DNA of 64,000 nt from Henriciella sp. (GTDB lineage: Bacteria; Pseudomonadota; Alphaproteobacteria; Caulobacterales; Hyphomonadaceae). Location: the NCBI GenBank assembly GCA_021776655.1, contig JAJFFK010000009.1, positions 62,001-126,000 on the forward strand, read 5' to 3'. The notes below the pieces were generated by a model. That model was not told the DNA's origin, did no database searches, and was given only the letters and a program-made list of their open reading frames with translations. Each line of letters starts with the position of its first letter. Positions within the stretch are counted from its first letter, which is position 1. The position numbers and the translations under genes were made by a program. Positions 6,388 through 23,282 of the stretch are shown piece after piece.

Positions 6388-7795
6388 AGGCCGGGGGTGG
6401 GGTGGGGAAATTTCCCAAATTAGGCAGCGCAATTGCCAGCTCCGTAGCATTCAAGCCAAACCAAGATCCAAGCGGAGCGGCAAATTGCTCGACAGAGGTC
6501 GTCGGAATGAGGCGGCCGCTTCCCGCGTCCTGATCGTGTCCGAAATCATATGTAGGCATCTGCCCGTAAATGTTGCGGCCCTGTACGGCCTGACCGATGA
6601 CAAAGTGGTGGCTGCCCCAGCCGTGATCTGTGCCATCGCCGTTGACCGCCAAGGTTCTGCCAAAATCAGATGCTGTGAAGGTCGTGACGCTATCAGCCAG
6701 CCCTAATTCCTGCATCGCTTGGTAAAATGCGACGACACCAGTATCGATTTGCGTTTGAAGGCCGGGCATATCCGTGGCCTGAGCGGAGTGCGTATCAAAA
6801 CCACCAATTGCGACAAAGAATACTTGCCGCTTCATGACCAGAGAGTCGCGGATGGCAATTGTTCGGGCAATGGCACTGAGTTGTTGCCCCAGGAAATGCT
6901 GTGGGAACTGCGTCACCAAAGGTTGGCCTGTCTCCAGAGCAGTATTGAAGTCTTCATTCGTGGTTAGCGCATCATTCATTGTTGCAACGATGTCGCGTTC
7001 AACCAGATTGCTGGATACAAAGTCCATCGCTTCAAAATGGTCACGTAGTTTCTGGTAGACGATTTCGCCGTTCGGTTCGCTTCGGTTTGCCTCGAAGAAT
7101 TTCAAGGCGTCTATCTCAATCGCACCATTTAGACCGATCTGATACGGCTTGGCAGTTTCTCCGGTCAGGAACAGTTCATTGCCGAGGCTGGTAATGGTTG
7201 TGAACTCTTGGTTCGAATTGGCCCCGGCATTCAAGGCGGCATCTGCAAATCTGCCGCCCCATCCAAAGCTGGCCCCTTCAGGCTGGCTGGACATCCAGGT
7301 TGACTGCTGATCATTGTGTGAAAACAGGCGCTTGGGAGTTGCAATGGTTTCGGCTTCAAACTCGGTTCGGTTTATCGGTTGAATGAGCGGGCCGACATTG
7401 GCAATGATCGCGGCGTCGCCGGAGTCAAACAGTCCCTTGATCCCTGCCATCTCTTCAGACAAAGCAAATTGGCGTCCGCCGAAATTGGCCGCGTTGTCCG
7501 GCACCAGTGGGAGAAGACGTGCCCTGTCTCGGGTCGAGCCACCTGCCATGTTGGCATATTGTCCCAGAAGTGAGGCACGAATGCTGGCATACTGATCATA
7601 TGATGGCTGGTCGTAGGGAAACACGATGTCATGTGTATCGAGGCCGCCGAGCAGGAAGATACACACCAAAGCCTTATAGCCAGATGTGTCCGCTGCTTGG
7701 GCTTCGAACGAGGATAAGGTCGCGCCGAGGCCAAGGAGCGAGGCGAGGCTAAGGGCGCTGCTGCCTTGCAGAAATTTACGCCGGTTCGGGGTCAT
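6380..7795 (-). CDS. DUF1501 family exported protein with Tat signal
   Basis: A 471-residue protein beginning with a twin-arginine signal (NRRKFLQGSSALSLASLLGL … EAQAA), so it is folded before export to the periplasm. The LVCIFLLGGLDTHDIVFPYD segment and the later FFVAIGGFDTHSAQ and SDFGRTLAVNGDGTDHGWG blocks define the DUF1501 family, which has an alkaline-phosphatase/sulfatase-like look. Its start lies 11 bases after the stop of the DUF1800 gene, so both are one operon; the two families almost always travel together. The biochemical role is unknown. Confidence 0.88.
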   Translation of the reverse strand: MTPNRRKFLQGSSALSLASLLGLGATLSSFEAQAADTSGYKALVCIFLLGGLDTHDIVFPYDQPSYDQYASIRASLLGQYANMAGGSTRDRARLLPLVPDNAANFGGRQFALSEEMAGIKGLFDSGDAAIIANVGPLIQPINRTEFEAETIATPKRLFSHNDQQSTWMSSQPEGASFGWGGRFADAALNAGANSNQEFTTITSLGNELFLTGETAKPYQIGLNGAIEIDALKFFEANRSEPNGEIVYQKLRDHFEAMDFVSSNLVERDIVATMNDALTTNEDFNTALETGQPLVTQFPQHFLGQQLSAIARTIAIRDSLVMKRQVFFVAIGGFDTHSAQATDMPGLQTQIDTGVVAFYQAMQELGLADSVTTFTASDFGRTLAVNGDGTDHGWGSHHFVIGQAVQGRNIYGQMPTYDFGHDQDAGSGRLIPTTSVEQFAAPLGSWFGLNATELAIALPNLGNFPTPPPAFI

Positions 7796-7806
7796 ATCGC
7801 TATCTC

Positions 7807-9615
7807 CTAGCGTTGTACGAGGTAGTCGGGGGCGGTGAGCATCATCAGCACGGCCAGACCCACCCTAAGGGCCGGCCCATCATAATTTGGATCGGCCGGA
7901 TCGGTCAGCGGAATATCGTTCAGGAACGTCTCGATGGTTGCTTTGGTTTCAGCAGTAGCGGTGCCATATGTTAGCAACAGATCGAGGTGATCGAGCAGGG
8001 CTGGTAGGTCATCTGCGAGTGGTAATTCGTCGCTATAATCTGGAATGAAGCTCGCGGCCCCAGGTGAACTTGTGTCGCCGGCGGCGAAGGCAAGCGTAAA
8101 GAAAGTCATGAAATTGGCATAGCCGGACACCGTGTTGGCATTAACCAGCTGAAGTTCCGGCATGGTAAGCCCAGCCGCACCTGTCTCTGTGCCCGGTGCA
8201 ATATATCCAGGCCGGTAGAAGTTAAACACTGACGACGCTTTGTAGGGATGTTGACCGAGTGCCGTTGGTGGGCTGGTATTCCACAAAAGACCGGTGAGTT
8301 CCGGCGTGACGGTTCCAACGTCAAAAGCTCGTGCCCAATTTATGAAACGCATAACGGGTTCACGGATCTTGCCAAACTGATCGTCTGAACGCGATGCATC
8401 GCTGCGCGCTTCAACATCAAACAAAACGGCCGCCATCGTCGCCGACAGGTCTCCGCGGCGTCCGTCGCCAACGCTTGCACCCGAAGGTAAAGTATAGTTT
8501 CCGGCTGAGAAGGCATCTGCAACCCTTTGAATATATTCAGGCTTTGGATGACTGGTTACAAACCGCTGAATCAACTGGCGACTCACAAATGGCGGGGTGT
8601 TTGGATGATCAACAAGTGCATCTAGTGCGATATCAATGCTTTGCACGGTGCCAGTTCCGGCAGGTACCGTCTCGTTCAAGAATGTTTTTTCAAGGTCAGA
8701 ATGGAAGCTGTCAAAGGCAACCATTGGCGTCCAAAGCGATTGGGGAGGGAGTAGAATAAATTGTGTCCCGAAAGCGGGTGCATCGAAGTACAGGCCGGTA
8801 AAAACCTTTGCCAATCCGGTGACATCACCATTGGTATATGTTTCCAGCGGCGCTCCGGAGGTATCTGTTCTAGGGGATCCATCCTGATCAAGTTCAACCA
8901 GACCGATGCTGAAAAGTTGCATGACTTCGCGGGCGTAGTTCTCATCTGGCATCTGCCCGGTCGCCGGGTTGCCTTTGGTGCTTCCCAGATAGGTCAAATA
9001 GATACCCATGGCGGGGGAATAAGTGACCTCTTCGAGGAGGTCGCGGTAATTCCCTAGTGCGTTGGTCACCAGGATGTCCTGGTAATTGGCAACAGTGGAG
9101 GGCAGATCAAATAGAATGCTGCCCTCCGCATGTGAGATGACGACGATTTGAGAGAGCGCAAAGGCTGTGCGCTGACGCAGCTGGTCATCCCCCTCAATTG
9201 CATTGCGCCAGAACGAGAATGTTGGGGTCTGTTTGGCAATGAATTTCAACATGCCGGTCGTATCCGTTGCTTCTGGCTTGGCAATTTCGGTCAGCACGTA
9301 ATCGAGGTTCAGGCTCGGTGCCTTGTTTAGCTCTGAGATAAACCAGTCTGAAGCACTGGTACCTGTCAGGGAACTGATATCTGAAGAGGTCGGCCCAAAA
9401 GTCGCTTGGGTGAGGAAGCGCGAGGTTGATGCTGCATTCTGAAATGCACCGCTTGGCGGAGGCGGCGGAGGCGGCGGAGGAGGGGGAGGTGGCGGAGGAG
9501 GAGGGGGAGATGGAACCGTCGTCGTGTCGCCGCCCCCGCCCCCGCCACACGCGGCTAAGCCGATGACTAGTGACAGGGCGACCGTTCGTGCATGAACCGA
9601 AATTCGTTTCCCCAT
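7807..9615 (-). CDS. DUF1800 family lipoprotein with polyproline linker
   Basis: A 602-residue protein with a lipoprotein signal (lipobox …GLAAC, Cys23), six glycines, then an uninterrupted run of about 18 prolines before the globular domain. The body (FLTQATFGPT, TFSFWRNAIEGDDQLRQR, MPDENYAREVMQLFSIGL, FVSRQLIQRFVTSHP, HPYKASSVFNFYRPGY) is the DUF1800 family. The proline run probably acts as a rigid spacer holding the domain away from the membrane. It is the promoter-proximal gene of the pair with DUF1501. The function is not established. The repetitive GGC/GGA tract encoding the prolines is prone to slippage. Confidence 0.88.
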   Translation of the reverse strand: MGKRISVHARTVALSLVIGLAACGGGGGGDTTTVPSPPPPPPPPPPPPPPPPPPSGAFQNAASTSRFLTQATFGPTSSDISSLTGTSASDWFISELNKAPSLNLDYVLTEIAKPEATDTTGMLKFIAKQTPTFSFWRNAIEGDDQLRQRTAFALSQIVVISHAEGSILFDLPSTVANYQDILVTNALGNYRDLLEEVTYSPAMGIYLTYLGSTKGNPATGQMPDENYAREVMQLFSIGLVELDQDGSPRTDTSGAPLETYTNGDVTGLAKVFTGLYFDAPAFGTQFILLPPQSLWTPMVAFDSFHSDLEKTFLNETVPAGTGTVQSIDIALDALVDHPNTPPFVSRQLIQRFVTSHPKPEYIQRVADAFSAGNYTLPSGASVGDGRRGDLSATMAAVLFDVEARSDASRSDDQFGKIREPVMRFINWARAFDVGTVTPELTGLLWNTSPPTALGQHPYKASSVFNFYRPGYIAPGTETGAAGLTMPELQLVNANTVSGYANFMTFFTLAFAAGDTSSPGAASFIPDYSDELPLADDLPALLDHLDLLLTYGTATAETKATIETFLNDIPLTDPADPNYDGPALRVGLAVLMMLTAPDYLVQR

Positions 9616-9835: not shown

Positions 9836-11395
9836 TCAGTGTAAGTAAGTCTGCGGACAGCTTGGCTTGTCTTTGAAAATGCAGGTTTCTGCCAGAGTTT
9901 CGTCACAGAACTTACACAAGGCATCAGGATCAGGTTGGGTAATCTTGTCGGTATGAATGCGAAACCCCTTATTGCGAAACTGTTTCAAAGTTCGCGAGAA
10001 GGTTTCAGGTGTCATATCAAGATAAGATGCCATGGTGGATTTGTCGTAGGGTAGGGTGATCGTGCTTGATTTACCGCCGTTTTGTTCGATGCCGAGTTGC
10101 AGCAAAAACCAGCCAACCCGCTCGCTCGCCGTTTTCAAGCGTGAATGTTCGATTTGGCGGATCAATCCGTGCGAGCGCATCGACAGGCTATTAATCATGT
10201 TCAGGGCAAACTTGCGATTGTCCATAAGGCTTTGCCGAACAATTGGTGCAGGCAGCGACAGCAGGACAACGTCCTGAACCACTTGAGCGCTGACCGTCGA
10301 AGGGATGTTGAGGAAGACTGCGGCTTCCATCAGGGAATCGCCGGAAGACAGCATTTGTAGAACGGTCTCGTCGCCACTTCCCGAACCTTTGAACAGTTTT
10401 ACCCAGCCTTTCAGGATCAGGTAGAACCGTGACAAAGGTTCATCCTGCAGGAAAAGTAATTTGCCTTTTTCGTAAGTCCGCAAGTCAGCATGTGACAGAA
10501 GCGTATCCAGCTCGTCGTCTTCAAGCTTTGAAAAGGCAGGCAGCGTCCGAATGATCGGCATATGTGGTTCGATCAGGGTGTGGCGCTTTGCTGGGGTGAC
10601 CGGTCGGACGGATATATCAGTTGGTGCAAGTGCTTTGACCAGATCGTCTTCGGCACGTTTCAGGCGGTCTATCTTGCCGGTCAACAACTCGAACCATGTC
10701 ACTGGCGATAGGGCTTCCAAATCATCGCTTATATCAGTCGCAGCGAGTTGGGCGTGAATATTTTCAAGACATTCCATGACATAGCCGCCCAGCGCCGCTT
10801 CAATCATTTGACTTTGTCCAGGCGTTGCGAGTGATAGAAAGGCCCTTTTATAAGCCCCCTGTTCTTCAATCAGGGTAATCATCCGCTCAGAGAATTCGCG
10901 GTTTCGAAACACTTTTGAGCAGAACCCATGTGCCCCCCACGCGCGCTCTCGCCCGGCGCGTTCTTTCCATTGCAGGAAATTGGAATAGGCGCTGACTTTG
11001 ACCGGATCGACATCTTTGATCTGGAGGGCAAGCTCAACGCTGATGTCTAAAATTGGCGCGAGAAACGCGTAGGTGTAAGTGTTGACCGCTTTGGCAAAAC
11101 TGATTTTGGATTGCTGAATCTGATCCCTGTGTTGCTGTCTCTCAGAACGACTGGTTTGAATGTCTCGAAGCTTTTCTGGCCAAGACGTTCCAATTACTGA
11201 GATCCATTCATCTAATGACTGCATAACCTTATCGGTGATGATGTACTGTGCCCGTAGCTCATCACTGAAAATCTCGCCCTTGCTGTCAATAAACAGCGCC
11301 GTGCAGCCCCGTTCCAGTTGGAGTTGGTGCGTCAGCTCGCCCAACGCCAATAGGAGTTGGGTCATCTGGGGCGGCGTAATAGCTACAGAATCCAT
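9836..11395 (-). CDS. Nitrate-sensing NIT domain fused to CRP/FNR-type transcription factor
   Basis: A 519-residue regulator. Residues about 10-230 are helical and carry ELTHQLQLERG and the hallmark QWKERAGRERAWGAHGF of NIT nitrate/nitrite sensing domains (as in NasR). Residues about 285-400 are a cyclic-nucleotide-binding-like beta roll (IIRTLPAFSKLEDDELDTLL; GKLLFLQDEPLSRFYLILKG), and about 415-475 a CRP winged HTH (STMASYLDMTPETFSRTLKQ). The extreme C-terminus has four cysteines, C494, C497, C505 and C513 (CX2CX7CX7C), unlike the N-terminal cysteines of FNR. It is divergent from narK across 147 bases with a TTGAC-N4-GTCAA palindrome. It most likely activates the nar genes in response to nitrate or nitrite. 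Confidence 0.88.
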   Translation of the reverse strand: MDSVAITPPQMTQLLLALGELTHQLQLERGCTALFIDSKGEIFSDELRAQYIITDKVMQSLDEWISVIGTSWPEKLRDIQTSRSERQQHRDQIQQSKISFAKAVNTYTYAFLAPILDISVELALQIKDVDPVKVSAYSNFLQWKERAGRERAWGAHGFCSKVFRNREFSERMITLIEEQGAYKRAFLSLATPGQSQMIEAALGGYVMECLENIHAQLAATDISDDLEALSPVTWFELLTGKIDRLKRAEDDLVKALAPTDISVRPVTPAKRHTLIEPHMPIIRTLPAFSKLEDDELDTLLSHADLRTYEKGKLLFLQDEPLSRFYLILKGWVKLFKGSGSGDETVLQMLSSGDSLMEAAVFLNIPSTVSAQVVQDVVLLSLPAPIVRQSLMDNRKFALNMINSLSMRSHGLIRQIEHSRLKTASERVGWFLLQLGIEQNGGKSSTITLPYDKSTMASYLDMTPETFSRTLKQFRNKGFRIHTDKITQPDPDALCKFCDETLAETCIFKDKPSCPQTYLH

Positions 11396-11454: not shown

Positions 11455-11468
11455 TTGACACAGGTCAA
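11455..11468. promoter_or_regulatory. CRP/FNR/DNR-type palindrome upstream of narK
   Basis: TTGACACAGGTCAA is a perfect inverted repeat (TTGAC-N4-GTCAA) in the gap between the NIT-CRP regulator and the first narK gene. It matches the TTGA(T/C)-N4-(A/G)TCAA class bound by FNR, DNR, NnrR and NarR proteins. A -10-like TACGAT lies at 11495-11500, which puts the site at a class II activator position. The neighbouring regulator is the obvious candidate ligand; FNR itself is the alternative. Confidence 0.75.
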
Positions 11469-11542: not shown

Positions 11543-12874
11543 ATGGCACATCTTGATAATGTCACTAAGGGACAGAGAAATACGGCTCTGACCGCATCTA
11601 CATTGGCTTTCACGGTATGTTTTGCGGTCTGGACGATTTTCTCGATTATCGGGATCAAGATCAAAGCCGAGCTTGGGCTGTCCGATACGCAATTTGGTCT
11701 GTTGATAGCGACACCGATTCTTACTGGGTCTCTAAGCCGGATTTTTCTTGGTATTTGGGCTGATCAATATGGTGGTAGGTTAGTCAATACAGTTTTGATG
11801 CTGATCACGGCCGGAGCGGTGGCTTTGCTGACCCTGGCTAGTACATATGAAATGTTTCTGGTCGCGGCGCTTGGTCTGGGATTGGCTGGAGGCAGCTTTG
11901 CCGTCGGTATTTCCTATGTCTCCAAATGGTATCCGAAAGAGCAGCAAGGCACCGCACTCGGTATTTTCGGCATGGGCAATGTTGGCGCGGCGGTTACGAC
12001 ATTTGGCGCGCCGTTAATACTCGTGGCGATGGGCGGGCAATGGAAATCCGTGGCGCTGGTTTACGCGGTAGTACTGGCGGTAACTGCTGTTATGTATTTC
12101 CTGATCGCCAAGGATGATCCGGTCCACTGCGAACGCAAGGCACAAGGCATCAAGCATCAGAGCTTCATCAAGCAGCTCTCGCCACTGAAGCATATTCAGG
12201 TCTGGCGTTTTGCCTTCTACTATTTCTTCGTTTTCGGCGGTTATGTTGCCTTGGCCTTGTGGTTGCCTCGCTTCTATATCGGCGCATATGGGCTATCTTT
12301 GGCAACCGCTGGTTTGTTGACCGCAGTGTATGCGTTGCCGGGATCAATATTCCGGGCGCTAGGCGGTTGGCTGTCCGACAAAATCGGTGCGCGTTCAGTA
12401 ATGTACTGGACCTTCGGCGTTTCCCTGGTGGCTCTGTTCTTCCTGTCATATCCGTCAACTGATTACAGCGTTGCCGGTATTGATGGCGCGATTGATTTCA
12501 ACATCACCATCCCGCTTTGGGCCTTTATTGGGCTGACTATTGTGCTTGGTTTTATGATGTCTCTAGGCAAGGCGGCAGTATATAAGCACATCCCGGTTTA
12601 CTACCCCGATCATGTGGGCGCAGTCGGCGGCATGGTTGGTATGATCGGCGGGTTGGGCGGCTTCTTCATGCCGATCGCCTTTGGCATCATGAATGACCTG
12701 ATCGGCGTATGGACGAGCTGTTTCATGCTGTTGACCCTGATTGTCGCGGTCAACCTGATCTGGATGCATGTCGCCATTCAGATGTCAGAGCGCACGGCGC
12801 ATCCAGAGCAGCGTGGCCCGAAAGACCTGCCTGAATTGCAAGACCTGCACGCCACTTCACCTGAGGGAGCTTGA
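11543..12874 (+). CDS. narK: NarK1-type nitrate transporter (MFS)
   Basis: A 443-residue, 12-helix MFS transporter of the nitrate/nitrite porter family. Family signatures include GGSFAVGISYVSKWYPKEQQ-type sequence in helix 5 and GIFGMGNVGAAVTTFGAP, and KAAVYKHIPVYYP with GGMVGMIGGLGGFF in the C-half. NarK1-type proteins are proposed proton/nitrate symporters that start nitrate import before nitrite is available for exchange. The start ATG follows a weak purine stretch. Only three bases separate it from the second transporter, and it is the first gene of the nar operon. Confidence 0.9.
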   Translation: MAHLDNVTKGQRNTALTASTLAFTVCFAVWTIFSIIGIKIKAELGLSDTQFGLLIATPILTGSLSRIFLGIWADQYGGRLVNTVLMLITAGAVALLTLASTYEMFLVAALGLGLAGGSFAVGISYVSKWYPKEQQGTALGIFGMGNVGAAVTTFGAPLILVAMGGQWKSVALVYAVVLAVTAVMYFLIAKDDPVHCERKAQGIKHQSFIKQLSPLKHIQVWRFAFYYFFVFGGYVALALWLPRFYIGAYGLSLATAGLLTAVYALPGSIFRALGGWLSDKIGARSVMYWTFGVSLVALFFLSYPSTDYSVAGIDGAIDFNITIPLWAFIGLTIVLGFMMSLGKAAVYKHIPVYYPDHVGAVGGMVGMIGGLGGFFMPIAFGIMNDLIGVWTSCFMLLTLIVAVNLIWMHVAIQMSERTAHPEQRGPKDLPELQDLHATSPEGA

Positions 12875-12877
12875 GAC

Positions 12878-14485
12878 ATGGCCAAAGATCTGAAAATCTG
12901 GAACCCGGAAGACGAGACTCAATGGGAGGCGAGCGGCAAAGCCATCGCCAACCGCAATCTGTGGATTTCAATACCATCCTTACTCTGCGGTTTTGCAGTC
13001 TGGCTGTATTGGGGCATTATCACGGTTCAGATGCTCAATCTCGGGTTTGCGTTTGAGCAATCTGAGCTGTTCACGTTGACCGCGATTGCAGGCCTGTCCG
13101 GCGCGACATTACGTATCCCTTCGACCTTCTTCATCAGGATTGCCGGGGGGCGAAACACGATCTTCCTGACCACGGCTTTGCTGATCCTGCCAGCGCTTGG
13201 CACCGGGTTCTTGTTGCAGGACGCATCAACGCCATTGTGGAAGTTCCAGATGGTCGCGCTTTTGTCAGGTTTTGGCGGCGGTAATTTCGCCTCTTCAATG
13301 TCGAATATCAGCTTCTTCTTTCCCAAGAAGGTCGCAGGCTATTCGCTCGGTATGAATGCCGGATTGGGCAATTTTGGCGTTACCACGATGCAAATCCTTA
13401 TCCCCTTGGTGATGACGGCGGCGATGTTTGGCGGGGCGCCTATGGTGCTTGAGGCAACCTCAGGCACGTTGATCGGCAAGATCCCGGCGGGCACTGACAC
13501 TTATTTGCACAATGCTGGTTTCATCTGGGTCGCAATTCTTGTCCCGATTGTTCTGGCGGCGTGGTATGGCATGAACAATATTACGGCTGATCACGTCTCA
13601 CCCAAGATTGGTTCAACCGCTGGGGCGTTCGGGAAAATCCTCGGTATGTTGGCGATCGGACTGGTCACAGCGGCGGGCGGTTTATGGCTGCTATTGCCTG
13701 CAGATGTTGGCGGGTCCGGTTTTGGTGTCAGCAAGTGGATTGTCGTACCTTTGGTTATCGCAGTCACAGTGTTTGCGCTGAAAATGATCCCCGGCGCAAT
13801 TAGTCAGAGCCTCAACCATCAGTACAAGATTTTCAACAATAAGCACACTTGGGCGATGACGGTCATCTATACGATGACGTTTGGGTCTTTCATCGGATTT
13901 GCCGCCACACTGGCCCTCGCGATCAAGGTCATCTTTGGCTACCAGCACGTCATGGTTGATGGCGTGATGACCCATGGCAACGTCAATCCTGATGGGCCTA
14001 GCGCTTTGATGTTCGCTTGGACGGGTGCGTTTATAGGCGCGCTGATCCGGCCGGTTGGTGGGATGATTGCCGACAAGATGGGCGGTGCCCGTGTGACGCA
14101 GATCATTTCAGTGATCATGGTCGCCGCAGCGCTTGGCGTCGCTTACTATATGAAGCTGGCTTATGCCTCGGAGACGCCGCAGGACTATTTCGTACCGTTC
14201 CTGATTCTATTCCTGATCCTGTTTGCCGCCACTGGTATCGGCAATGGCTCAACTTTCCGGACCATCGCGCAAGTGTTTGATCGTGAGCAGGCAGGCCCTG
14301 TGCTCGGCTGGACTTCAGCGGTGGCTGCATACGGCGCTTTCATCATCCCGAAAGTGTTCGGCGAGCAGATCAAGGCAACAACGCCTGAGTACGCTCTGTA
14401 CGGTTTTGCAGCCTTCTACATGGTCTGCATCGTCATCAACTGGTGGTTCTACCTCCGCAAAAACGCCTACGTGCAGAACCCTTAA
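12878..14485 (+). CDS. narK2: NarK2-type nitrate/nitrite antiporter (MFS)
   Basis: A 535-residue MFS protein paralogous to the preceding gene. It has the longer loops typical of NarK2-type nitrate/nitrite antiporters, GGGNFASSMSNISFFFPKK in helix 5 and GLGNFGVTTMQILIPLV. It would export the nitrite made by NarG in exchange for nitrate. In Paracoccus the two transporters are one fused polypeptide; here they are separate genes with a 3-base gap, so their stoichiometry can be set by translation. A GGAG-like ribosome site leads to narG 12 bases downstream. Confidence 0.9.
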   Translation: MAKDLKIWNPEDETQWEASGKAIANRNLWISIPSLLCGFAVWLYWGIITVQMLNLGFAFEQSELFTLTAIAGLSGATLRIPSTFFIRIAGGRNTIFLTTALLILPALGTGFLLQDASTPLWKFQMVALLSGFGGGNFASSMSNISFFFPKKVAGYSLGMNAGLGNFGVTTMQILIPLVMTAAMFGGAPMVLEATSGTLIGKIPAGTDTYLHNAGFIWVAILVPIVLAAWYGMNNITADHVSPKIGSTAGAFGKILGMLAIGLVTAAGGLWLLLPADVGGSGFGVSKWIVVPLVIAVTVFALKMIPGAISQSLNHQYKIFNNKHTWAMTVIYTMTFGSFIGFAATLALAIKVIFGYQHVMVDGVMTHGNVNPDGPSALMFAWTGAFIGALIRPVGGMIADKMGGARVTQIISVIMVAAALGVAYYMKLAYASETPQDYFVPFLILFLILFAATGIGNGSTFRTIAQVFDREQAGPVLGWTSAVAAYGAFIIPKVFGEQIKATTPEYALYGFAAFYMVCIVINWWFYLRKNAYVQNP

Positions 14486-14497
14486 GGAGCGACCATA

Positions 14498-17400
14498 ATG
14501 GGACATTTTATTGATCGACTGACGTATTTCTCAAAGCTCGAAGGCAAGTTTGCCGATGGTCATGGGATTACCACTAGCGAGCATCGCGGCTGGGAGAGAT
14601 CCTATCGCGGTCGCTGGGCGCACGACAAGATCGTCCGCTCGACGCATGGGGTGAATTGTACAGGGTCTTGCAGCTGGAAGATTTACGTCAAGAATGGCCT
14701 TGTGACGTGGGAGACGCAACAAACGGACTACCCACGCACACGTCCCGATATGCCGAACCACGAGCCGCGAGGCTGTTCGCGTGGCGCCAGTTACTCTTGG
14801 TATCTCTACTCCGCAGCGCGGCTGAAATTTCCGCTCATCCGCTCGCGCCTGCTCAAGGCGTGGCGGGCGGCCAAGGCGGTTCATTCAGACCCGGTCGATG
14901 CTTGGGGAAGTATTGTTTCTGACCCTGAAAAGGCAAATGATTACAAGAAAATGCGCGGGCTTGGCGGCTTCGTTCGCGGCAATTGGGATGAGGTCAATGA
15001 GATCACGGCCGCCGCCAATATCTATACGGTCAAAACCCATGGACCGGATCGGGTTGTCGGGTTCTCGCCGATCCCGGCCATGTCGATGGTCTCTTACGCT
15101 GCGGGGACGCGATATCTTTCATTGATGGGCGGAACGTGCCTGAGCTTTTACGATTGGTATTGCGATCTGCCGCCAGCCTCACCGCAGATCTGGGGCGAGC
15201 AAACAGATGTTCCCGAAAGTGCTGATTGGTTCAACTCGTCTTACATCATTGCTTGGGGCTCAAACGTCCCGCAGACACGGACACCGGACGCGCACTTCTT
15301 CACCGAGACACGTTACAAAGGCACCAAGACCGTCTCTGTGACGCCTGACTATTCAGAGGTCGCCAAGCTGACCGATATTTGGCTGAACCCGCGCCAAGGC
15401 ACTGACAGCGCGATGGCGATGGCGATGGGCCATGTCGTGTTCAAGGAGTTCCATCTCGGTGGCAAGTCCGAATATTTTGAAGACTATATCCGCACCTATT
15501 CCGATATGCCGATGTTGGTTTTGCTTGAAGAGAAGGACAGTTATTACCAGCCGGGTCGGACGCTGCGTGCATCAGATTTCACCGGTGATTTGAAGGTTCC
15601 AGATAATCCAGAATGGTGTCCGGTCGTTTGGGATGAGACGTCTAAATCCATCAAGTCACCAAACGGGTCGGCTGGCTCACGTTGGGGCGAGAAGGGTAAA
15701 TGGAATCTGGAAGCCAAGGACCGGGCGACTGGGGAGGATATTTGGCCTCAGCTTTCCTTCCTTGAAGAGCGCGACGAAGCGCTCGGCGTAGCTTTTCCGT
15801 ATTTTGGCAACCAGCCACATGAGCAAGACATCTTCGCGCATACAGATCATGATGATGTTCAGGTACGCAATGTGCCTGTGCGCAAGGTCAAACTGAAAGA
15901 CGGCAAGAGCGCCTACGTAACGACTGTCTATGATCTGACGGCGGCGAACTATGCGCTTGATCGCGGGCTTGGCGGCGGCAATGTTGCGACGTCCTATGAT
16001 GACAATATGCCCTACACACCGGCTTGGCAGGAAGCCATTACCGGCGTCGATCGGGCCAAAGTCATACAGGTCGCACGCGAGTTTGCCGATAATGCCGACA
16101 AAACGCGTGGCCGCTCAATGGTCATTCTCGGCGCGGGGGTCAATCACTGGTACCATATGGATATGATCTATCGGGGGATCATCAATCTCCTGATCATGTG
16201 TGGTTGTATCGGCAAGTCTGGTGGCGGCTGGGCGCATTATGTTGGCCAGGAAAAGCTCCGTCCACAGACCGGCTGGATCCCGCTGGCCTTCGCGACAGAC
16301 TGGACCCGTCCACCCCGGCAGATGAACTCGACCTCGTATTTTTACAGTCACTCGGATCAGTGGCGGTATGAAAAGCTGGGTGTTAATGAAATCCTCTCGC
16401 CGCTAGCTGACAAGGCCAAGTGGGAGAACCATTCGCTGATCGACTGTAATGTTCGTTCAGAGCGTATGGGCTGGTTGCCATCGTCTCCGCAATTCAAAGA
16501 CAATCCACTTGGAATGGCGGATCGTGCGAAAGCGGCGGGAACCGATACGAAAACCTATGTTACCGGGCAGCTGGTTTCGGGCGAGATGGAGTTTTCGTGT
16601 GAAGACCCGGACGATCCGGCCAACTTCCCGCGCAACATGTTCATTTGGCGCTCGAACATTCTCGGTTCGTCCGGCAAGGGCCATGAATATATGCTCAAGC
16701 ATCTACTTGGCGCGTCGAACTCGTTGCTTAGTGAGGATATTGGCGAGACGGGCGGCGCGAAACCGGCTGAGGTGAAATGGCATGACGAGGCCCCGGAAGG
16801 GAAACTCGATCTGGTCGTGACATTGGATTTCCGTATGTCCACGACGGCGGTCTATTCCGACATCGTGCTGCCTGCGGCGACCTGGTACGAGAAGAATGAT
16901 CTCAACACTTCTGACATGCATCCGTTCATTCACCCGCTTTCACGGGCGGTTGATCCGGCTTGGGAAAGCCGATCGGATTGGAAGATTTTCGAGGGTCTAT
17001 CGAAGAAATTCTCAGAGCTTTGCGTTGGCCACCTCGGCATTGAAACCGATCTGGTAAGTGTGCCGATCCTGCATGATACACCGGGTGAACTTGGTCAGGC
17101 GCTTGGCGTCAAAGATTGGAAGAAAGGTGAGTGTGATCCTATCCCCGGCAAGACGATGCCGAACCTGGTTGAAGTGACCCGCAATTACCCGGCTCTGCAT
17201 CAAATGTTCACCTCGATTGGACCGCTGCTCGCCAAAGTGGGCAATGGTGGCAAAGGGATTGGCTGGAACACCGAAGACGAAGTGAAGCTGCTTGGTCAGC
17301 TGAACAAGACGGTACGCGAAGAGGGCGTTTCAAAAGGCCAACCTAAGATCGGTTCTGCCATCGATGCGGCTGAAATGATCCTGACTCTGGCGCCTGAAAC

Positions 17401-18277
17401 CAACGGCCAGGTTGCGGTTAAAGCCTGGGCGGCGCTCAGCGAGTTCACGGGCCGCGATCACACCCATTTGGCGCGTCCGAAACAGGACGAGAAAATTCGC
17501 TTTCGGGATGTTCAAGCGCAACCGCGCAAGATCATTTCCTCACCAACATGGTCGGGGATTGAAGACGAACATGTCAGCTATAATGCCGGTTATACCAACG
17601 TGCATGAGTTGATCCCGTGGCGCACGCTAACCGGGCGTCAGCAATTCTACATGGACCATGAATGGATGCGTGATTTTGGCGAGACATTGTGTGTCTATAA
17701 ACCGCCAATCTCGACTCGGACGATTACCGATGCGGTGAAAGCGCGTGGCGCATCGTCGAAACAGATCGCGCTCAACTGGATCACGCCGCACCAGAAATGG
17801 GGCATCCATTCGACCTATTCAGACAATTTGTTACTGCTCACAATGAACCGTGGTGGCCCGGTGATTTGGATTTCCGAGATTGATGCCAAAAAGATCGGTG
17901 TCAAAGACAATGACTGGATCGAAGCCTACAATACCAATGGAGCGATCTCGGCCCGCGCGGTGGTCTCGCAACGTGTGCCAGAAGGCATGAGTATGATGTA
18001 TCATGCGCAAGAAAAGACCATCAACACGCCGGGGAACTCTATCACTGGCAAGCGCGGTGGCATCCACAACTCGGTGACGCGCGCCGTGGTCAAACCAACA
18101 CATATGATCGGTGGTTACGCCCAACTCTCTTGGGGCTTCAACTATTATGGCACGGTTGGATCGAACCGCGATGAGTTCGTCATCGTGCGCAAAGCCGACA
18201 AACTCGATTGGATCGAGGAGCCTTATCAAGAGGGCCAGGCAATCAATATAGATCTCAAATCGGGAGCAGTATCATGA
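14498..18277 (+). CDS. narG: Respiratory nitrate reductase alpha subunit NarG
   Basis: A 1259-residue Mo-bis-MGD catalytic subunit. The FS0 cluster ligands are intact: H50, C54, C58 and C93, matching H49/C53/C57/C92 of the E. coli enzyme. The molybdenum ligand is D223 in FYDWYCDLPPASPQIW. It reduces nitrate to nitrite on the cytoplasmic face using electrons passed through NarH from quinol at NarI. There is no Tat signal, as expected for the membrane-bound cytoplasmic enzyme rather than NapA. Length is normal. The stop overlaps the narH start (ATGA). Confidence 0.97.
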   Translation: MGHFIDRLTYFSKLEGKFADGHGITTSEHRGWERSYRGRWAHDKIVRSTHGVNCTGSCSWKIYVKNGLVTWETQQTDYPRTRPDMPNHEPRGCSRGASYSWYLYSAARLKFPLIRSRLLKAWRAAKAVHSDPVDAWGSIVSDPEKANDYKKMRGLGGFVRGNWDEVNEITAAANIYTVKTHGPDRVVGFSPIPAMSMVSYAAGTRYLSLMGGTCLSFYDWYCDLPPASPQIWGEQTDVPESADWFNSSYIIAWGSNVPQTRTPDAHFFTETRYKGTKTVSVTPDYSEVAKLTDIWLNPRQGTDSAMAMAMGHVVFKEFHLGGKSEYFEDYIRTYSDMPMLVLLEEKDSYYQPGRTLRASDFTGDLKVPDNPEWCPVVWDETSKSIKSPNGSAGSRWGEKGKWNLEAKDRATGEDIWPQLSFLEERDEALGVAFPYFGNQPHEQDIFAHTDHDDVQVRNVPVRKVKLKDGKSAYVTTVYDLTAANYALDRGLGGGNVATSYDDNMPYTPAWQEAITGVDRAKVIQVAREFADNADKTRGRSMVILGAGVNHWYHMDMIYRGIINLLIMCGCIGKSGGGWAHYVGQEKLRPQTGWIPLAFATDWTRPPRQMNSTSYFYSHSDQWRYEKLGVNEILSPLADKAKWENHSLIDCNVRSERMGWLPSSPQFKDNPLGMADRAKAAGTDTKTYVTGQLVSGEMEFSCEDPDDPANFPRNMFIWRSNILGSSGKGHEYMLKHLLGASNSLLSEDIGETGGAKPAEVKWHDEAPEGKLDLVVTLDFRMSTTAVYSDIVLPAATWYEKNDLNTSDMHPFIHPLSRAVDPAWESRSDWKIFEGLSKKFSELCVGHLGIETDLVSVPILHDTPGELGQALGVKDWKKGECDPIPGKTMPNLVEVTRNYPALHQMFTSIGPLLAKVGNGGKGIGWNTEDEVKLLGQLNKTVREEGVSKGQPKIGSAIDAAEMILTLAPETNGQVAVKAWAALSEFTGRDHTHLARPKQDEKIRFRDVQAQPRKIISSPTWSGIEDEHVSYNAGYTNVHELIPWRTLTGRQQFYMDHEWMRDFGETLCVYKPPISTRTITDAVKARGASSKQIALNWITPHQKWGIHSTYSDNLLLLTMNRGGPVIWISEIDAKKIGVKDNDWIEAYNTNGAISARAVVSQRVPEGMSMMYHAQEKTINTPGNSITGKRGGIHNSVTRAVVKPTHMIGGYAQLSWGFNYYGTVGSNRDEFVIVRKADKLDWIEEPYQEGQAINIDLKSGAVS

Positions 18278-19881
18278 CTATTCGTGCACAAATCGGCATG
18301 GTTCTGAACCTCGATAAATGTATCGGTTGCCATACGTGTTCGATCACTTGCAAGAATGTTTGGACGTCTCGCGGCGGGGTTGAATATGCTTGGTTCAACA
18401 ATGTTGAGACCAAACCCGGCGTTGGCTATCCGCGTAACTGGGAAGACCAGAGCGAGTGGAAGGGTGGTTGGGAACTGACCAAAGGTGGCAAGCTGAAACC
18501 CAAAGCGGGCGGAAAAACCAGCCTGCTGACGCAGATTTTCGCTAATCCGAACCTGCCAGAGATCGATGACTATTATGATCCTTTCACGTTCGAATACGAT
18601 CACCTGAAAACCGCCAAAGAGAGCAAAACAGTTCCAACCGCGCGGATGAAATCTGTCATCACCGGTAAAACCAAAGACGCCCCAGATTGGGGCGTGAACT
18701 GGGAGGAAATTCTCGGGGGTGAGTTCGAAAAGCGGTCTGAAGACTACAATTTCGAGGGTATGCAGAAAGAAATGTATGGTGAGTTTGAAAACACCTTCAT
18801 GATGTACCTTCCGCGCCTGTGCGAGCATTGCCTCAACCCGTCATGCGTCGCGTCTTGCCCTTCTGGAGCGATCTATAAACGCGAAGAAGATGGCATCGTT
18901 CTGATCGACCAAGACAAGTGCCGTGGTTGGCGCATGTGCGTGTCAGGCTGTCCCTACAAGAAGATCTATTTCAACTGGCAATCAGGCAAGTCTGAAAAAT
19001 GCACGTTCTGTTATCCGCGTATCGAAGCGGGCGAGCCAACTGTGTGTTCGGAAACCTGTGTCGGGCGCATCCGCTATCTTGGTGTGTTGCTGTATGATGC
19101 GGACAAGATCCAAGAGGCGGCATCAACGCCAGACGAGAAGGACCTGTATCAGGCGCAATGCGATCTGTTCCTTGATCCACATGATCCAGATGTGATCGCG
19201 CGCGCGAAAGCCGATGGTATTCCAGATAGCTGGCTGGAAGCGGCTAAGGAGTCGCCTGTCTACAAAATGGCGATGGATTGGAAAATTGCTTTCCCGTTGC
19301 ATCCTGAATATCGCACCTTGCCTATGGTTTGGTACGTGCCGCCTCTGTCGCCAATTCAATCAGCCGATGAAGCTGGTTTGCTCGGCAAGGAAGGCGTTTT
19401 GCCAGATATAAAGTCCTTGCGCATTCCGGTGCAGTATCTCGCCAACCTGCTTACCGCAGGTGACGAGGAACCTGTCACCACCGCGCTAGAGCGGATGATG
19501 GGCATGCGGGCCTATATGCGGGCCAAGCATGTTGAAGGGTACAAGGATGTCCGCGTGCTGGAGCAGCTCGGTATGAGCGAAGACGAGATGGAAGACATGT
19601 ATCAGATGATGGCGATCGCCAATCATGAGGATCGCTTTGTTATTCCGACCAATCACAAGGAGTATGCCGGCGAGGGGCCGTTTGATCACGAGATCGCCTT
19701 CGAGACGCGGTCTGAGTGCGGCTTCAGCTTCGGCAATGGCTGTCATGGCGGTGAGAAGAAGCGCACCAATCTGTTCGGTTCGCAAACGCACGGTAACACA
19801 TTGAGTGGCCGAGCGCCGGGATCGAAACCGATGGGTAGTGGCTGGGTTGGCGCCCGAAAAAATGAAGGAGACGGATCATGA
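18274..19881 (+). CDS. narH: Nitrate reductase beta subunit NarH
   Basis: A 535-residue electron-transfer subunit with four Fe-S clusters. The first group is C16, C19, C22 and C26 in KCIGCHTCSITCK; later groups are CEHCLNPSCVASCP, CRGWRMCVSGCP (where Trp replaces a cysteine, the signature of the [3Fe-4S] centre) and CTFCYPRIEAGEPTVCSETC. The frame is open from 18208, but the ATG at 18274 gives the family N-terminus and the coupled ATGA overlap with narG. It passes electrons from NarI haem to NarG. The stop again overlaps narJ. Confidence 0.97.
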   Translation: MTIRAQIGMVLNLDKCIGCHTCSITCKNVWTSRGGVEYAWFNNVETKPGVGYPRNWEDQSEWKGGWELTKGGKLKPKAGGKTSLLTQIFANPNLPEIDDYYDPFTFEYDHLKTAKESKTVPTARMKSVITGKTKDAPDWGVNWEEILGGEFEKRSEDYNFEGMQKEMYGEFENTFMMYLPRLCEHCLNPSCVASCPSGAIYKREEDGIVLIDQDKCRGWRMCVSGCPYKKIYFNWQSGKSEKCTFCYPRIEAGEPTVCSETCVGRIRYLGVLLYDADKIQEAASTPDEKDLYQAQCDLFLDPHDPDVIARAKADGIPDSWLEAAKESPVYKMAMDWKIAFPLHPEYRTLPMVWYVPPLSPIQSADEAGLLGKEGVLPDIKSLRIPVQYLANLLTAGDEEPVTTALERMMGMRAYMRAKHVEGYKDVRVLEQLGMSEDEMEDMYQMMAIANHEDRFVIPTNHKEYAGEGPFDHEIAFETRSECGFSFGNGCHGGEKKRTNLFGSQTHGNTLSGRAPGSKPMGSGWVGARKNEGDGS

Positions 19882-20558
19882 GAACGCTTCGAGTGCTCGC
19901 GAAACTTCTGGCTTATCCTGATGCTGAAATACTGGCGCAAATGAGCGCCTTGAAGGGCGTATTGGTTGAGGATGACTTCCTGAAGCCGAAGACCCTCAAA
20001 CCTCTGATCGCTTTTATGGATCGGCTGGCGCATGCGGACCTGATGCAGTCGCAAGAAGACTATGTAGAGCTGTTTGACCGGGGCCGGGCACATTGTCTGC
20101 ACCTGTTTGAGCATGTCCATGGCGAGTCGCGGTTTCGTGGGCAGGCAATGGTTGAGCTGTCAGAACGGTACGCTGAAATGGGGCTGCAAATCGGTACGGG
20201 TGAACTGCCTGATTATCTACCGCTTTTCCTTGAGTTCATTTCGATTTGCGAACCGGAAGAGGGGCTTGAAACATTGGCGCAATCGGCCCCAATTATTGGC
20301 ATGATTGGCGAGAAGCTAAGGCGCAAAAAAAGTGATTATGCCGCCATTATGGATGCGGTTGTTGCGCTGTCAGGGGCCAAGCTGAACAAGGCTGAAATCC
20401 GCAAGGCGGCGGATGCGGCTCTGCCGAATATCAAGACACTGGATGAGCTTGATGAGCAATGGCAGGAGCCGGAAGCGTTTGGCGGCGCGCCCGATTGTGG
20501 GACTTGCGGCCCGTCCGGATTACCGGTGACGCCGTCAGGTGTGGGAGGCCAGCTATGA
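19878..20558 (+). CDS. narJ: Nitrate reductase assembly chaperone NarJ
   Basis: A 226-residue helical TorD/DmsD-family chaperone. The family pattern YVELFDRGRAHCLHLFEHVHGESRFRG-type segment lies near residues 55-80, followed by LPDYLPLFLEFIS. It binds apo-NarGH and assists molybdenum cofactor and Fe-S insertion before membrane docking. The C-terminus ends in a short cysteine motif (DCGTCG), seen in some NarJ homologues. Both ends overlap neighbours by four bases, so it is made in step with NarH and NarI. Confidence 0.95.
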   Translation: MRTLRVLAKLLAYPDAEILAQMSALKGVLVEDDFLKPKTLKPLIAFMDRLAHADLMQSQEDYVELFDRGRAHCLHLFEHVHGESRFRGQAMVELSERYAEMGLQIGTGELPDYLPLFLEFISICEPEEGLETLAQSAPIIGMIGEKLRRKKSDYAAIMDAVVALSGAKLNKAEIRKAADAALPNIKTLDELDEQWQEPEAFGGAPDCGTCGPSGLPVTPSGVGGQL

Positions 20559-21238
20559 GCGAGCACATCAATACTTTTTTCTTCGGAATTTTCCCGTATA
20601 TCGCCGTCAGCAGTATGATCCTTGGGTCTATCCTGCGTTATGACCGCGACCCTTATTCCTGGAAGGCCGATTCCAGCCAATTGATGAGCCGTAAGGGCTT
20701 GCGTTGGGGGAGTAACCTGTTTCATGTCGGCATTTTGCTGCTGTTCTTCGGGCATTTGGTCGGGCTGCTGACGCCGCATTGGGCCTATGAGCCATTCATC
20801 ACGGCGGGGCAGAAACAATTTCTTGCGATGACTGCCGGCGGTATTTTTGGCGGCATGTGTTTCATTGGCATGTTGATCTTGATCTGGCGTCGTACGTCGG
20901 ACGCACGTGTACGGGCGACGACCAAGTTTATGGATATGGCGATCCTGCTGATGCTGTTCGCGCAACTGGTCCTCGGCCTGCTGACCATTCCGCAATCAGC
21001 CAAGCACCTGGATGGCTCGTCGATGATCGCGCTGGCCGAATGGGCGCAGCATATCGTGACATTCCGGCCGGATGCTGCGGTGTTTATTGAACATGAGCAT
21101 TGGATATTCAAAGCGCATATCGTGTTGGGGCTATCGATCTTCCTGATTTTCCCGTTTACCCGGCTGGTGCACATCTTCAGCGCCCCGTTCAAATACCTGC
21201 TCCGCTCGGGCTATCAGATCGTGCGCAAACGTGGGTAG
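20555..21238 (+). CDS. narI: Nitrate reductase gamma subunit NarI
   Basis: A 227-residue integral membrane cytochrome b subunit with five transmembrane helices. Likely haem ligands are the histidines in FFGHLVGLLTPHW and later in AEWAQHIVTF and FKAHIVLG. It oxidises quinol and sends electrons to NarH. The reading frame extends back to 20459, but the ATG at 20555 overlaps the narJ stop and starts the conserved N-terminus MSEHINTFFFGIFPYIAVS. It is the last gene of the operon; a terminator begins 26 bases after the stop. Confidence 0.95.
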   Translation: MSEHINTFFFGIFPYIAVSSMILGSILRYDRDPYSWKADSSQLMSRKGLRWGSNLFHVGILLLFFGHLVGLLTPHWAYEPFITAGQKQFLAMTAGGIFGGMCFIGMLILIWRRTSDARVRATTKFMDMAILLMLFAQLVLGLLTIPQSAKHLDGSSMIALAEWAQHIVTFRPDAAVFIEHEHWIFKAHIVLGLSIFLIFPFTRLVHIFSAPFKYLLRSGYQIVRKRG

Positions 21239-21313: not shown

Positions 21314-21327
21314 TTGATGCAGATCAA
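21314..21327. promoter_or_regulatory. Canonical FNR box upstream of the porin gene
   Basis: TTGATGCAGATCAA is an exact TTGAT-N4-ATCAA FNR consensus. Its centre lies about 68 bases before the porin ATG. A -10-like GATTAA at 21350-21355 would place transcription start about 41 bases from the centre, the classic class II activation distance. It implies that the porin is induced under oxygen limitation or by the neighbouring NIT-CRP regulator. Confidence 0.85.
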
Positions 21328-21388: not shown

Positions 21389-22633
21389 ATGCGGACGTTA
21401 CTTCTGAGCTCTGTAGCTGCAACCTTACTCTGGTTTGCTGGCCCGGCATTGGCCGAAGAGGCCGATGATACGGTCATAAACAGCATTGCTGATGCGATCA
21501 TGAACGGCAAGGTCATTGTCGATCTCCGCTATCGTTTGGAGACCGTTGAGCAAGATGGATTTGCTGAAGAGGCTACCGCCTCAACCCTGCGCACGAAGCT
21601 GAAATATGTTACCGGCGAGTATAAGGGCGTTTCGGTCGTTGTGGAGTTTGACAATGTTACCCAGATCGGAGTTGGCGACTATAATAGCACCGTCAACGGC
21701 AAGACCATGTATCCGGTTGTGGCCGATCCGCTGATCACCGAAGTCAACCAGATTCACTTAATCTATACCGGCTTCGACAACACGACCCTTCTTGCCGGGC
21801 GCACGGCACTCAACCTGAATAATCAACGCTTTGTCGGCACCGTCGGTTGGCGCCAGAACGATCAGACTTGGGATATGGCTGGTGGTATCACAACACCCGC
21901 CAAAGACGTGACGCTGACCTATGCCTATGTCTGGAACGTCAATCGCATCTTTGGTGACGATCATCCGTTCGGCGATCTAGATACCAACACGTTTATCCTG
22001 AATGCTGAATATACTGGTTTTGATCTTGGTAAAATCACCGCCTATGGATTGATGATCGACTTGAATGATGCACCTGTTTTTGGCCTCTCCAGCCAAACTT
22101 TTGGGGTTCGCTTCGAAGGCCAGCAAGAGGTTGGCGATCATGGCATGAAAGTTCTGTATGAAGCTGAAGTCGCAACCCAAAGCGATTATCAGGACAACCC
22201 CAATTCCTACACGGCCAATTACTACCATTTAAGCGGCGGTCTCTCGGCGCATGGCTTCACTGGCAAGCTCGGTTATGAGGTTCTCGGCTCCGACAATGGC
22301 AGCTCGTTTCAAACGCCTTTGGCCACATTGCACAAGTTCAACGGCTGGGCCGACAAGTTTCTCGGTACGCCAGCGGGTGGACTGGAAGACATCTATGCGT
22401 CAGCCTCTTACAAGGTCGGCGTGGATGGACCGTTCAAGGGTTTGAAGTTCGACGCGATTTACCACGACTTCTCGGCTGAAACGGGCGGCGATTACGGCAC
22501 CGAGGTCGATCTGCAAATCTCAAAGAGTTTCATGGAGCATTATACTCTCGGCCTGAAATTCGCCGACTATAGCTCGGATGGCTTTGCGACGGATACGCAG
22601 AAGCTCTGGGTGACACTGGGTGCCAAGTTTTAA
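21389..22633 (+). CDS. Outer-membrane porin-like beta-barrel, probably nitrate-linked
   Basis: A 414-residue protein with a clear Sec signal peptide (RTLLLSSVAATLLWFAGPALA, cleaved before EEADD) and an all-beta body of alternating strands ending in phenylalanine (…LGAKF), the outer-membrane insertion signal. Segments such as VIVDLRYRLETVEQDGFAEEA and TASTLRTKLKYVTGEYKGVS resemble alginate-export/OprD-like porins. It has its own promoter with an FNR box and sits between nar and mobA. The likely role is anion (nitrate or nitrite) passage through the outer membrane during anaerobic growth; that is inference from context. Confidence 0.75.
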   Translation: MRTLLLSSVAATLLWFAGPALAEEADDTVINSIADAIMNGKVIVDLRYRLETVEQDGFAEEATASTLRTKLKYVTGEYKGVSVVVEFDNVTQIGVGDYNSTVNGKTMYPVVADPLITEVNQIHLIYTGFDNTTLLAGRTALNLNNQRFVGTVGWRQNDQTWDMAGGITTPAKDVTLTYAYVWNVNRIFGDDHPFGDLDTNTFILNAEYTGFDLGKITAYGLMIDLNDAPVFGLSSQTFGVRFEGQQEVGDHGMKVLYEAEVATQSDYQDNPNSYTANYYHLSGGLSAHGFTGKLGYEVLGSDNGSSFQTPLATLHKFNGWADKFLGTPAGGLEDIYASASYKVGVDGPFKGLKFDAIYHDFSAETGGDYGTEVDLQISKSFMEHYTLGLKFADYSSDGFATDTQKLWVTLGAKF

Positions 22634-22694: not shown

Positions 22695-23282
22695 TTGAAG
22701 AAACTGGATGTCCCTTGTGTGATACTGGCGGGCGGCGGTTCGCGCAGGTTTGGATACAGAAAGTCTGATGCGCTGCTTGCTGGTCGTCCTCTGGTCACGC
22801 ATGTGTTGAGCGCACTTGCTGCGCAGACCTCAGGTGAGATTGCCTTGAACCTGAGAGGCGATGCCGAGAGCGATCAATCGGAGTACCCGGTCATCGCTGA
22901 TCGACTGCCTGGTGGGCTCGGTCCGCTTGCGGGTATTCACGCGGCGATGGTTTGGGCGCAGAAACTAGGGTACGAGACTGTCGTAACTGTCCCGGTCGAT
23001 ACCCCGTTTTTGCCAATGGATTTGTTGGTCGGTCTGATCGGGGGTGGCGCACCATCAGTCGCGGTTAGCGCTGGCCGGCAGCATGGCGTCTGCGGGCTGT
23101 GGCCTGTCAGTCAAGCGGCGGCTCTGGCGGTCAGATTGCGGGCGGGCGAGTACCGGGTTCAGACCTGGGTTAATACGATAGCTGCAAACCTCGTCCTGTT
23201 TCCAAAAACCGGATCACTGGACCCATTCTTCAACATCAATACAAAGCAGGATCTGGCGATAGCCGAAGCGGTCTTTGATTGA
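22695..23282 (+). CDS. mobA: Molybdenum cofactor guanylyltransferase MobA
   Basis: A 195-residue protein with the diagnostic N-terminus VILAGGGSRRFGYRKSDAL, LPGGLGPLAGI in the middle and VPVDTPFLP as the metal-binding aspartate region. It attaches GMP from GTP to molybdopterin, producing the MGD cofactor that NarG needs. Length matches the family. It is 61 bases behind the porin with no obvious terminator between, so it may share the FNR-controlled promoter. That would couple cofactor maturation to demand for NarG. Confidence 0.93.
   Translation: MKKLDVPCVILAGGGSRRFGYRKSDALLAGRPLVTHVLSALAAQTSGEIALNLRGDAESDQSEYPVIADRLPGGLGPLAGIHAAMVWAQKLGYETVVTVPVDTPFLPMDLLVGLIGGGAPSVAVSAGRQHGVCGLWPVSQAAALAVRLRAGEYRVQTWVNTIAANLVLFPKTGSLDPFFNINTKQDLAIAEAVFD

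Follow-up and report, generated by a model that had tools for sequence, protein, structure and literature searches.

A NIT-domain Crp/Fnr regulator with a conserved four-cysteine tail, encoded divergently to the nar operon of Henriciella sp., as a candidate nitrate and oxygen/redox switch

Domain architecture of the regulator and its nar locus

The window analysed here, a stretch of 64,000 nucleotides from Henriciella sp. (contig JAJFFK010000009.1, positions 62,001 to 126,000), carries on its reverse strand an ATG-start open reading frame of 519 amino acids (9836..11395) in which Pfam identifies a NIT domain, a cNMP_binding-type beta roll and a Crp-type helix-turn-helix (HTH_Crp_2). A preliminary description of this DNA, made from the letters alone, had proposed the NIT domain and a domain search for it; that search matched PF08376 over profile positions 1-238 of 239 (E 4.1e-36, 126 bits against a cut-off of 24.9), placing the domain at residues 20-256 (10628..11338, reverse strand). 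The stretch quoted there as its N-terminus, QWKERAGRERAWGAHGF, is real but lies mid-domain at residues 142-158, where it aligns with the part of NasR that carries E175/R176 of helix 5. The beta roll (residues 306-391; 10223..10480, reverse strand) and the HTH (residues 425-495; 9911..10123, reverse strand), both also anticipated, scored 59.1 and 50.9 bits, each above its cut-off, which identifies the protein as a member of the Crp/Fnr family. Matches of the CRP half to NCBIfam models (FtrB, FixK, NtcA and Fnr) all fell below the respective cut-offs. Sequence matches in the PDB divide in the same way, the C-terminal half matching Crp/Fnr proteins (3fx3 and the DNR structure 3dkw) and the N-terminal half NasR (4akk, E 1.7e-9), and no ANTAR domain was identified in the regulator among Pfam matches up to E 1. 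Four cysteines, C494, C497, C505 and C513 (CX2CX7CX7C; 9857..9916, reverse strand), fall in the final 26 residues, at and beyond the end of the HTH, in the positions and spacing first reported. The observed combination of NIT domain, CRP/HTH module and four-cysteine tail is thus confirmed. An assembly or frame artefact was rejected as the source of the fusion, since the gene is a single open frame and 62 homologues share its architecture. The AlphaFold2 model of the regulator is weak (mean pLDDT 71.4; 59, 56 and 49 in the last three blocks), the tail included, and is therefore uninformative on the geometry of the cysteine tail; among the 50 Foldseek matches listed for it, Crp/Fnr structures superposed poorly (rmsd 10 to 16) and no NIT structure appeared. 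A plasmid search returned no record in which one place covered 80% of the query.

The regulator gene faces narK1 (11543..12874, forward strand) across 147 bp, in line with its suggested position opposite the nar operon. Both transporter genes were assigned by models scoring below their cut-offs, narK1 by TIGR00886 (225 bits, curated cut-off 311.7) and narK2 (12878..14485) by TIGR00886 and NarU models. They are followed on the same strand by narG (14498..18277; TIGR01580, 2212.8 bits), narH (18271..19881; TIGR01660, 920 bits), narJ (19878..20558; TIGR00684, 110 bits) and narI (20459..21238), the last given as the longest open reading frame, of which residues 37-258 match TIGR00351, so that its real start is probably near the narJ stop. 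Further along the forward strand lie a gene for a predicted outer-membrane protein of 414 amino acids (21389..22633), porin-like by eye, with homologues in relatives by BLAST and no Pfam or NCBIfam match, and a mobA-like molybdenum cofactor guanylyltransferase gene (22695..23282; TIGR02665, 133 bits against a cut-off of 151.85). Homologues of the porin-like gene recur next to nar in relatives. Genes encoding DUF1501 and DUF1800 proteins, a common pairing, are adjacent at 6380-9615.

A sequence scan of the intergenic region identified an FNR-type palindrome, TTGAC-N4-GTCAA (11455..11468), its centre 81.5 bp from the narK1 start codon and 66.5 bp from that of the regulator, upstream of both. A second exact palindrome (21314..21327) precedes the porin-like gene; the two occurrences of TTGAY-N4-RTCAA in the window compare with 0.28 expected from shuffles, 2 of 100 of which reach two. 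Scanning the whole genome gave 21 sites, compared with 4 when the pattern was reversed, and 17 of the 19 outside the window sit within a crudely called open reading frame. One of these genomic sites (L173), an exact palindrome, precedes by about 120 bp a gene that looked moaA-like by eye, and the short open reading frame enclosing the site is probably spurious; the two others examined had no clear promoter. In the HTH, residues E464-T-F-S467-R468 (9992..10006, reverse strand) form an ExxSR pattern, with E464, S467 and R468 present in all 63 rows of the alignment described below, which we take to be the recognition-helix pattern of FNR. A conserved glutamic acid and serine are described for the Fnr HTH (PMC7713065).

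Conservation and distribution of the NIT-CRP family

The alignment comprised the window protein and 62 alphaproteobacterial homologues with identities down to 32% (63 rows, 57 clusters at 90% identity), taken from open reading frames of more than 450 amino acids, many of them in draft genomes; because frames were delimited stop to stop, start positions are uncertain, and because rows are related by descent, the counts are not independent events. NIT-CRP proteins were found in 1 of the 105 genomes of the window's family (16 of which contain narG), 22 of 398 in a sample of the order, 2 of 385 in a sample of the class and 3 of 398 in a sample of the phylum, all three belonging to the window's class; these samples overlap, they count the window genome wherever it belonged to the sample, and the last three figures are lower bounds, at most three candidates per genome having been scored. 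Two orders counted without the window gave 39 of 196 genomes and, for a third alphaproteobacterial order, 1 of 5. In the order sample 23 genomes had matched and in the second alphaproteobacterial order 40, one match in each being to a CRP only, and one of the 22 order-sample proteins (G298) covers only profile positions 170-526; it and G392 were left out of the 63-row alignment. Six second-order matches were reported with internal stops, yet stop-to-stop frames of 523-532 amino acids span these genes, and in our reading the stops precede the frames. Carriers include Robiginitomaculum sp. NORP13, the alphaproteobacterial MAG SJ69 and Asticcacaulis aquaticus. Among open-licence PubMed Central full texts, no title or abstract start that was found names such a protein.

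Alignment with NasR, numbered by an offset set on E175/R176 as given in PMC7496416, pairs Q26-R29 (11309..11320, reverse strand) with the QxxR motif of NasR (R50 by offset) and G148-R151 (10943..10954, reverse strand) with its GxxR motif (R176). R29 is retained in 62 of 63 rows, the exception being a truncated protein (L076), as are G148 and R151, the latter missing from one decayed copy (L224). The nitrate-contact pair is thus present and conserved in the regulator. GxxR is described as a nitrate-binding motif, and NasR as retaining both arginines with one motif glycine replaced by glutamine (PMC8199190), a variant that the window NIT domain has in common with it. The domain very probably senses nitrate or nitrite.

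The tail cysteines are near-invariant, C497, C505 and C513 being Cys in all 63 rows and C494 in 62, with an unread base accounting for the exception (L219), so the alignment of homologues that had been proposed for them came out in favour of conservation. The remaining cysteines are poorly kept (C31 in 57%, C159 in 24% and C209 in 8% of rows) and average identity to the window protein elsewhere in the tail is 33%, whereas the four cysteines and D498 belong to a set of 51 positions (of 519) at which at least 62 rows have the window residue. The otherwise variable tail is thus constrained specifically at its cysteines, and chance occurrence was rejected on the same comparison. A metal site in the tail is very probable. 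No N-terminal cysteines of the FNR type (CX2-3C...C) were found, only C31, C159 and C209 preceding the tail. The preliminary description had stated that the Fe-S cysteines of FNR are N-terminal, which is incomplete: Bacillus Fnr is described as binding its cluster through C-terminal cysteines and an aspartate (PMC3520743).

A divergent nar gene lies within 3.5 kb upstream of 55 of the 62 homologues, and within 1 kb in 51 of those; neighbour labels come from BLAST against a small custom reference set, with spot checks by Pfam and NCBIfam. The four more distant cases are L005, L066, L192 and the second of two copies in L189, separated from nar by the other copy and one more gene. The L189 stretch has one NIT-CRP gene at narK and one towards ccoNOP, with a porin-like gene in between. 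Among the seven homologues outside this count (L004, L076, L187 and L221-L224), two end at a contig edge (L004, L076), one has 641 bp upstream (L187), two have nar nearby with an intervening CRP that lacks both NIT domain and tail (L222, L223), and L221 has intact NIT motifs and no nar within the piece read; L224 is considered below. TTGA-N6-TCAA occurs upstream of 51 of the 55 nar-linked homologues (all but L003, L069, L190 and L220) against none of the other seven, three of which are at or near a contig end; as background, the rest of the loci scanned have 38 in 484,588 bp, or 0.042 expected per 540 bp. Where another Crp/Fnr protein is present the palindrome could serve that protein. Other common neighbours in relatives are moaA, moaCB, moeA and the porin-like gene, the moa and moe genes having been checked by Pfam in L005.

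Relatives without the NIT domain

Two genomes (G372 and G360) encode, in addition to a NIT-CRP protein at nar, a paralogue that has the tail and no NIT domain, divergent to ccoN-O-P-G-(FixH)-CcoI (gene identities by Pfam in L079 and by BLAST in L080). These cco-side paralogues have a shorter last spacing, CX2CX7CX4C. A further tail-only protein (L081) is encoded ahead of ccoNOPG in the same orientation, five NIT-less tail-bearing relatives stand beside nar (L084-L088), and for two tail-only relatives (L082, L083) the 19 kb read contained no nar or cco genes. TTGA-N6-TCAA was found in 6 of 7 tail-only loci next to nar or cco; of the tail-only loci outside that count, L082 and L083 have the site and L081 does not. 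One nar-linked NIT-less relative (L087), on a long branch, has tyrosine for the second tail cysteine. A different C-terminal cysteine cluster is present in three NIT-less Crp/Fnr proteins encoded close to ccoNOPG or CcoI genes (L090, L092, L229), perhaps a second class of Crp/Fnr regulator with C-terminal cysteines.

The notion that NIT domain and tail are one inseparable invention was rejected by a phylogenetic reconstruction of the CRP domain, in which a single NIT clade is excluded (AU p 9.85e-5). Tail-only proteins (L079/L080 and L081/L082) nest inside the NIT clade, so that the NIT domain was most simply lost there and the tail kept. A single clade of all tail-bearing rows was not rejected (p 0.095) in a tree made without 8 of 66 rows on long or distant branches, among them L087, which the CRP tree scores as tail-bearing by hand despite its missing cysteine. 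Paracoccus NarR groups within the tail-bearing clade, but its branch is long and its place unsure, and we set this long-branch join aside.

Loss of the NIT domain can be followed in one genus. In L224, a locus otherwise syntenic with L198, L199 and L210, the nar and porin-like genes are absent, GxxR is lost and the NIT match falls to 74 bits, with the tail intact; identity to genus relatives is 29-41% in the NIT half and 67-84% in the CRP half, against 60-68% and 88-95% for pairs among L198, L199, L201, L202 and L210. The corresponding locus of a second genome in the genus (L225) has no NIT domain and keeps the tail. Here the NIT domain therefore goes with nar, and the tail is independent of nitrate; since the two are one locus in one genus, they represent one event or two. 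Each of the two genomes has nar at another locus, together with a CRP that has the tail and no NIT domain (L226 in the genome of L225, L227 in that of L224), which indicates that the NIT domain is dispensable at some nar operons.

In the window's own family, the divergent slot of all five other nar loci read (of 15 genomes) is occupied by a NarR-like protein lacking both NIT domain and tail, with 45-48% identity to Paracoccus NarR and 27-30% to the window CRP half; two of the five score alike and start alike. The FtrB models NF006901 and NF050815 are the best NCBIfam matches to the window CRP half, which scores 129.3 and 114.1 bits, below the curated cut-offs of 211 and 300, whereas four of the family nar-slot proteins pass both. 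On NF006901 these four reach 346-360 bits and Paracoccus NarR 332, and the NCBI model would name the family nar-slot protein FtrB.

A candidate two-input switch and its alternatives

Anaerobic nitrate respiration usually needs two regulatory proteins, one for oxygen and one for nitrate. Paracoccus is described as using FnrP for the oxygen input and NarR for the nitrate/nitrite input, with NarR replacing NarXL in Alphaproteobacteria (PMC8139620). The window regulator resembles Paracoccus NarR in occupying the slot divergent to a narK-type MFS gene and narG (L097), and differs in its NIT domain and cysteine tail, both of which NarR lacks. With Klebsiella NasR it shares the NIT domain, the QxxR/GxxR pair and a one-component design for nitrate sensing, but NasR has an RNA-binding ANTAR output and an assimilatory role, whereas the window protein has a Crp-type DNA-binding output and a cysteine tail in a respiratory context. 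It is like FNR, FnrP and FnrN in its Crp/Fnr fold, ExxSR helix and TTGA-N6-TCAA box (on the FNR side presumably, in part), and unlike them in that their [4Fe-4S] cysteines are at the N-terminal end and its own at the other. Bacillus Fnr resembles it in this respect, being described as a Crp/Fnr protein with a C-terminal cysteine cluster that also starts CX2C (PMC3520743); it has CX2CX4C plus Asp141 and a [4Fe-4S] cluster, compared with CX2CX7CX7C, a fourth tail cysteine, an added NIT domain and a predicted cofactor in the window protein.

On balance we consider the protein to be a one-component Crp/Fnr regulator that activates narK1K2GHJI in response to nitrate, with a metal or Fe-S centre as its probable gate; control of nar is very likely, and genomics supports the nitrate and nar roles well. 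We infer the ligand, the direction of control and the cofactor. The NIT domain would read nitrate or nitrite through the NasR-type pair of arginine motifs, and the signal would relieve an inhibitory contact, by analogy with NasR, for which release of autoinhibition is described (PMC7496416). The CRP dimer could then bind TTGAY-N4-RTCAA via its FNR-like recognition helix and activate the divergent narK1-narK2-narGHJI genes, perhaps also those for the outer-membrane protein and molybdenum cofactor synthesis. The CX2CX7CX7C tail would bind a metal centre, most likely an Fe-S cluster, which, as with Bacillus Fnr, would tie activity to low oxygen or to redox state; we lean towards an oxygen/redox Fe-S function for the tail. 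Such a regulator would take the place of NarR at the locus, and the FNR input may reside in it too.

The preliminary description had proposed that nitrate and oxygen/redox sensing are merged in one polypeptide, an interpretation that is partly supported. Its nitrate half is well backed, by the NIT domain, the contact residues, the nar linkage and the decay of the NIT domain at a locus that lacks nar. Its oxygen/redox half rests on cysteine conservation, the NIT-less tail-bearing relatives at cbb3 genes and the precedent of Bacillus Fnr. Alternatively, the regulator may respond to nitrate only, the NIT domain being its sole signal input and the tail a structural zinc site for stability of the fold or dimer. 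Four invariant cysteines amid a variable tail fit zinc and Fe-S equally, as a zinc site would show the same conservation, and several NIT-CRP genomes hold a separate CRP with an N-terminal CX2C: this motif was present in 5 of 17 CRPs read, of 30 matches other than NIT-CRP (L107, L108, L109, L114, L125), so a separate oxygen sensor may exist there. We nonetheless regard this nitrate-only reading as unlikely, because relatives with a missing or decayed NIT domain keep the tail (at cbb3 genes and in L224/L225) and would need another signal, and because other Crp/Fnr proteins are few in some of these genomes. A second full Crp-type protein was not found in the window genome (Pfam, E 1e-3; a draft of 47 contigs), where the NIT-CRP gene alone among four PF13545 matches encodes one, a single further match above the cut-off lies in a 120-amino-acid frame, and the second cNMP_binding protein is of the patatin/NTE type. 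Six of the 21 other NIT-CRP genomes likewise have a single PF13545 match (E 1e-8), the rest having 2 to 5. From this mixed census, some genomes, not all, may have no oxygen-capable Crp/Fnr switch other than NIT-CRP.

The tail could also detect nitric oxide or thiol/nitrosative stress and lower nar expression as NO accumulates. Fe-S regulators such as FnrP are described as answering NO as well as O2 (PMC4771820), and some relatives have NnrS or a hemerythrin-domain protein (RIC/YtfE by resemblance) as neighbours. These genes are found in only a minority of the NIT-CRP loci read, and tail-only relatives stand at the cbb3 oxidase, so we think this function improbable. The cbb3 oxidase is a classical low-oxygen target. 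Least probable, and in our judgement very doubtful, is the reading in which the NIT domain of a NarR-type regulator has lost nitrate binding and the effector site is in the CRP beta roll: Paracoccus NarR, without NIT domain or tail, is indeed described as sensing nitrate/nitrite (PMC8139620), but QxxR and GxxR are kept in every readable row except L224, whose locus lacks nar.

To return to the two-input reading, a NIT module and a conserved four-cysteine tail in one protein may together report nitrate plus oxygen or redox state. NIT-CRP proteins might then be widespread alphaproteobacterial coincidence detectors, combining NIT-sensed nitrate with oxygen/redox sensing by the four cysteines and merging the inputs of FNR/NarXL or FnrP/NarR, and be the sole Crp/Fnr protein found in some genomes, including that of the window, a proposition that we regard as evenly balanced. 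If true, a single soluble protein would receive both inputs, acting as a compact AND gate open to reconstitution in vitro. The natural series of NIT domain plus tail at nar, tail at cbb3, tail without nar and bare NarR makes the roles of the modules testable, and may shed light on how nitrate sensing arose in Paracoccus NarR, a protein with neither module.
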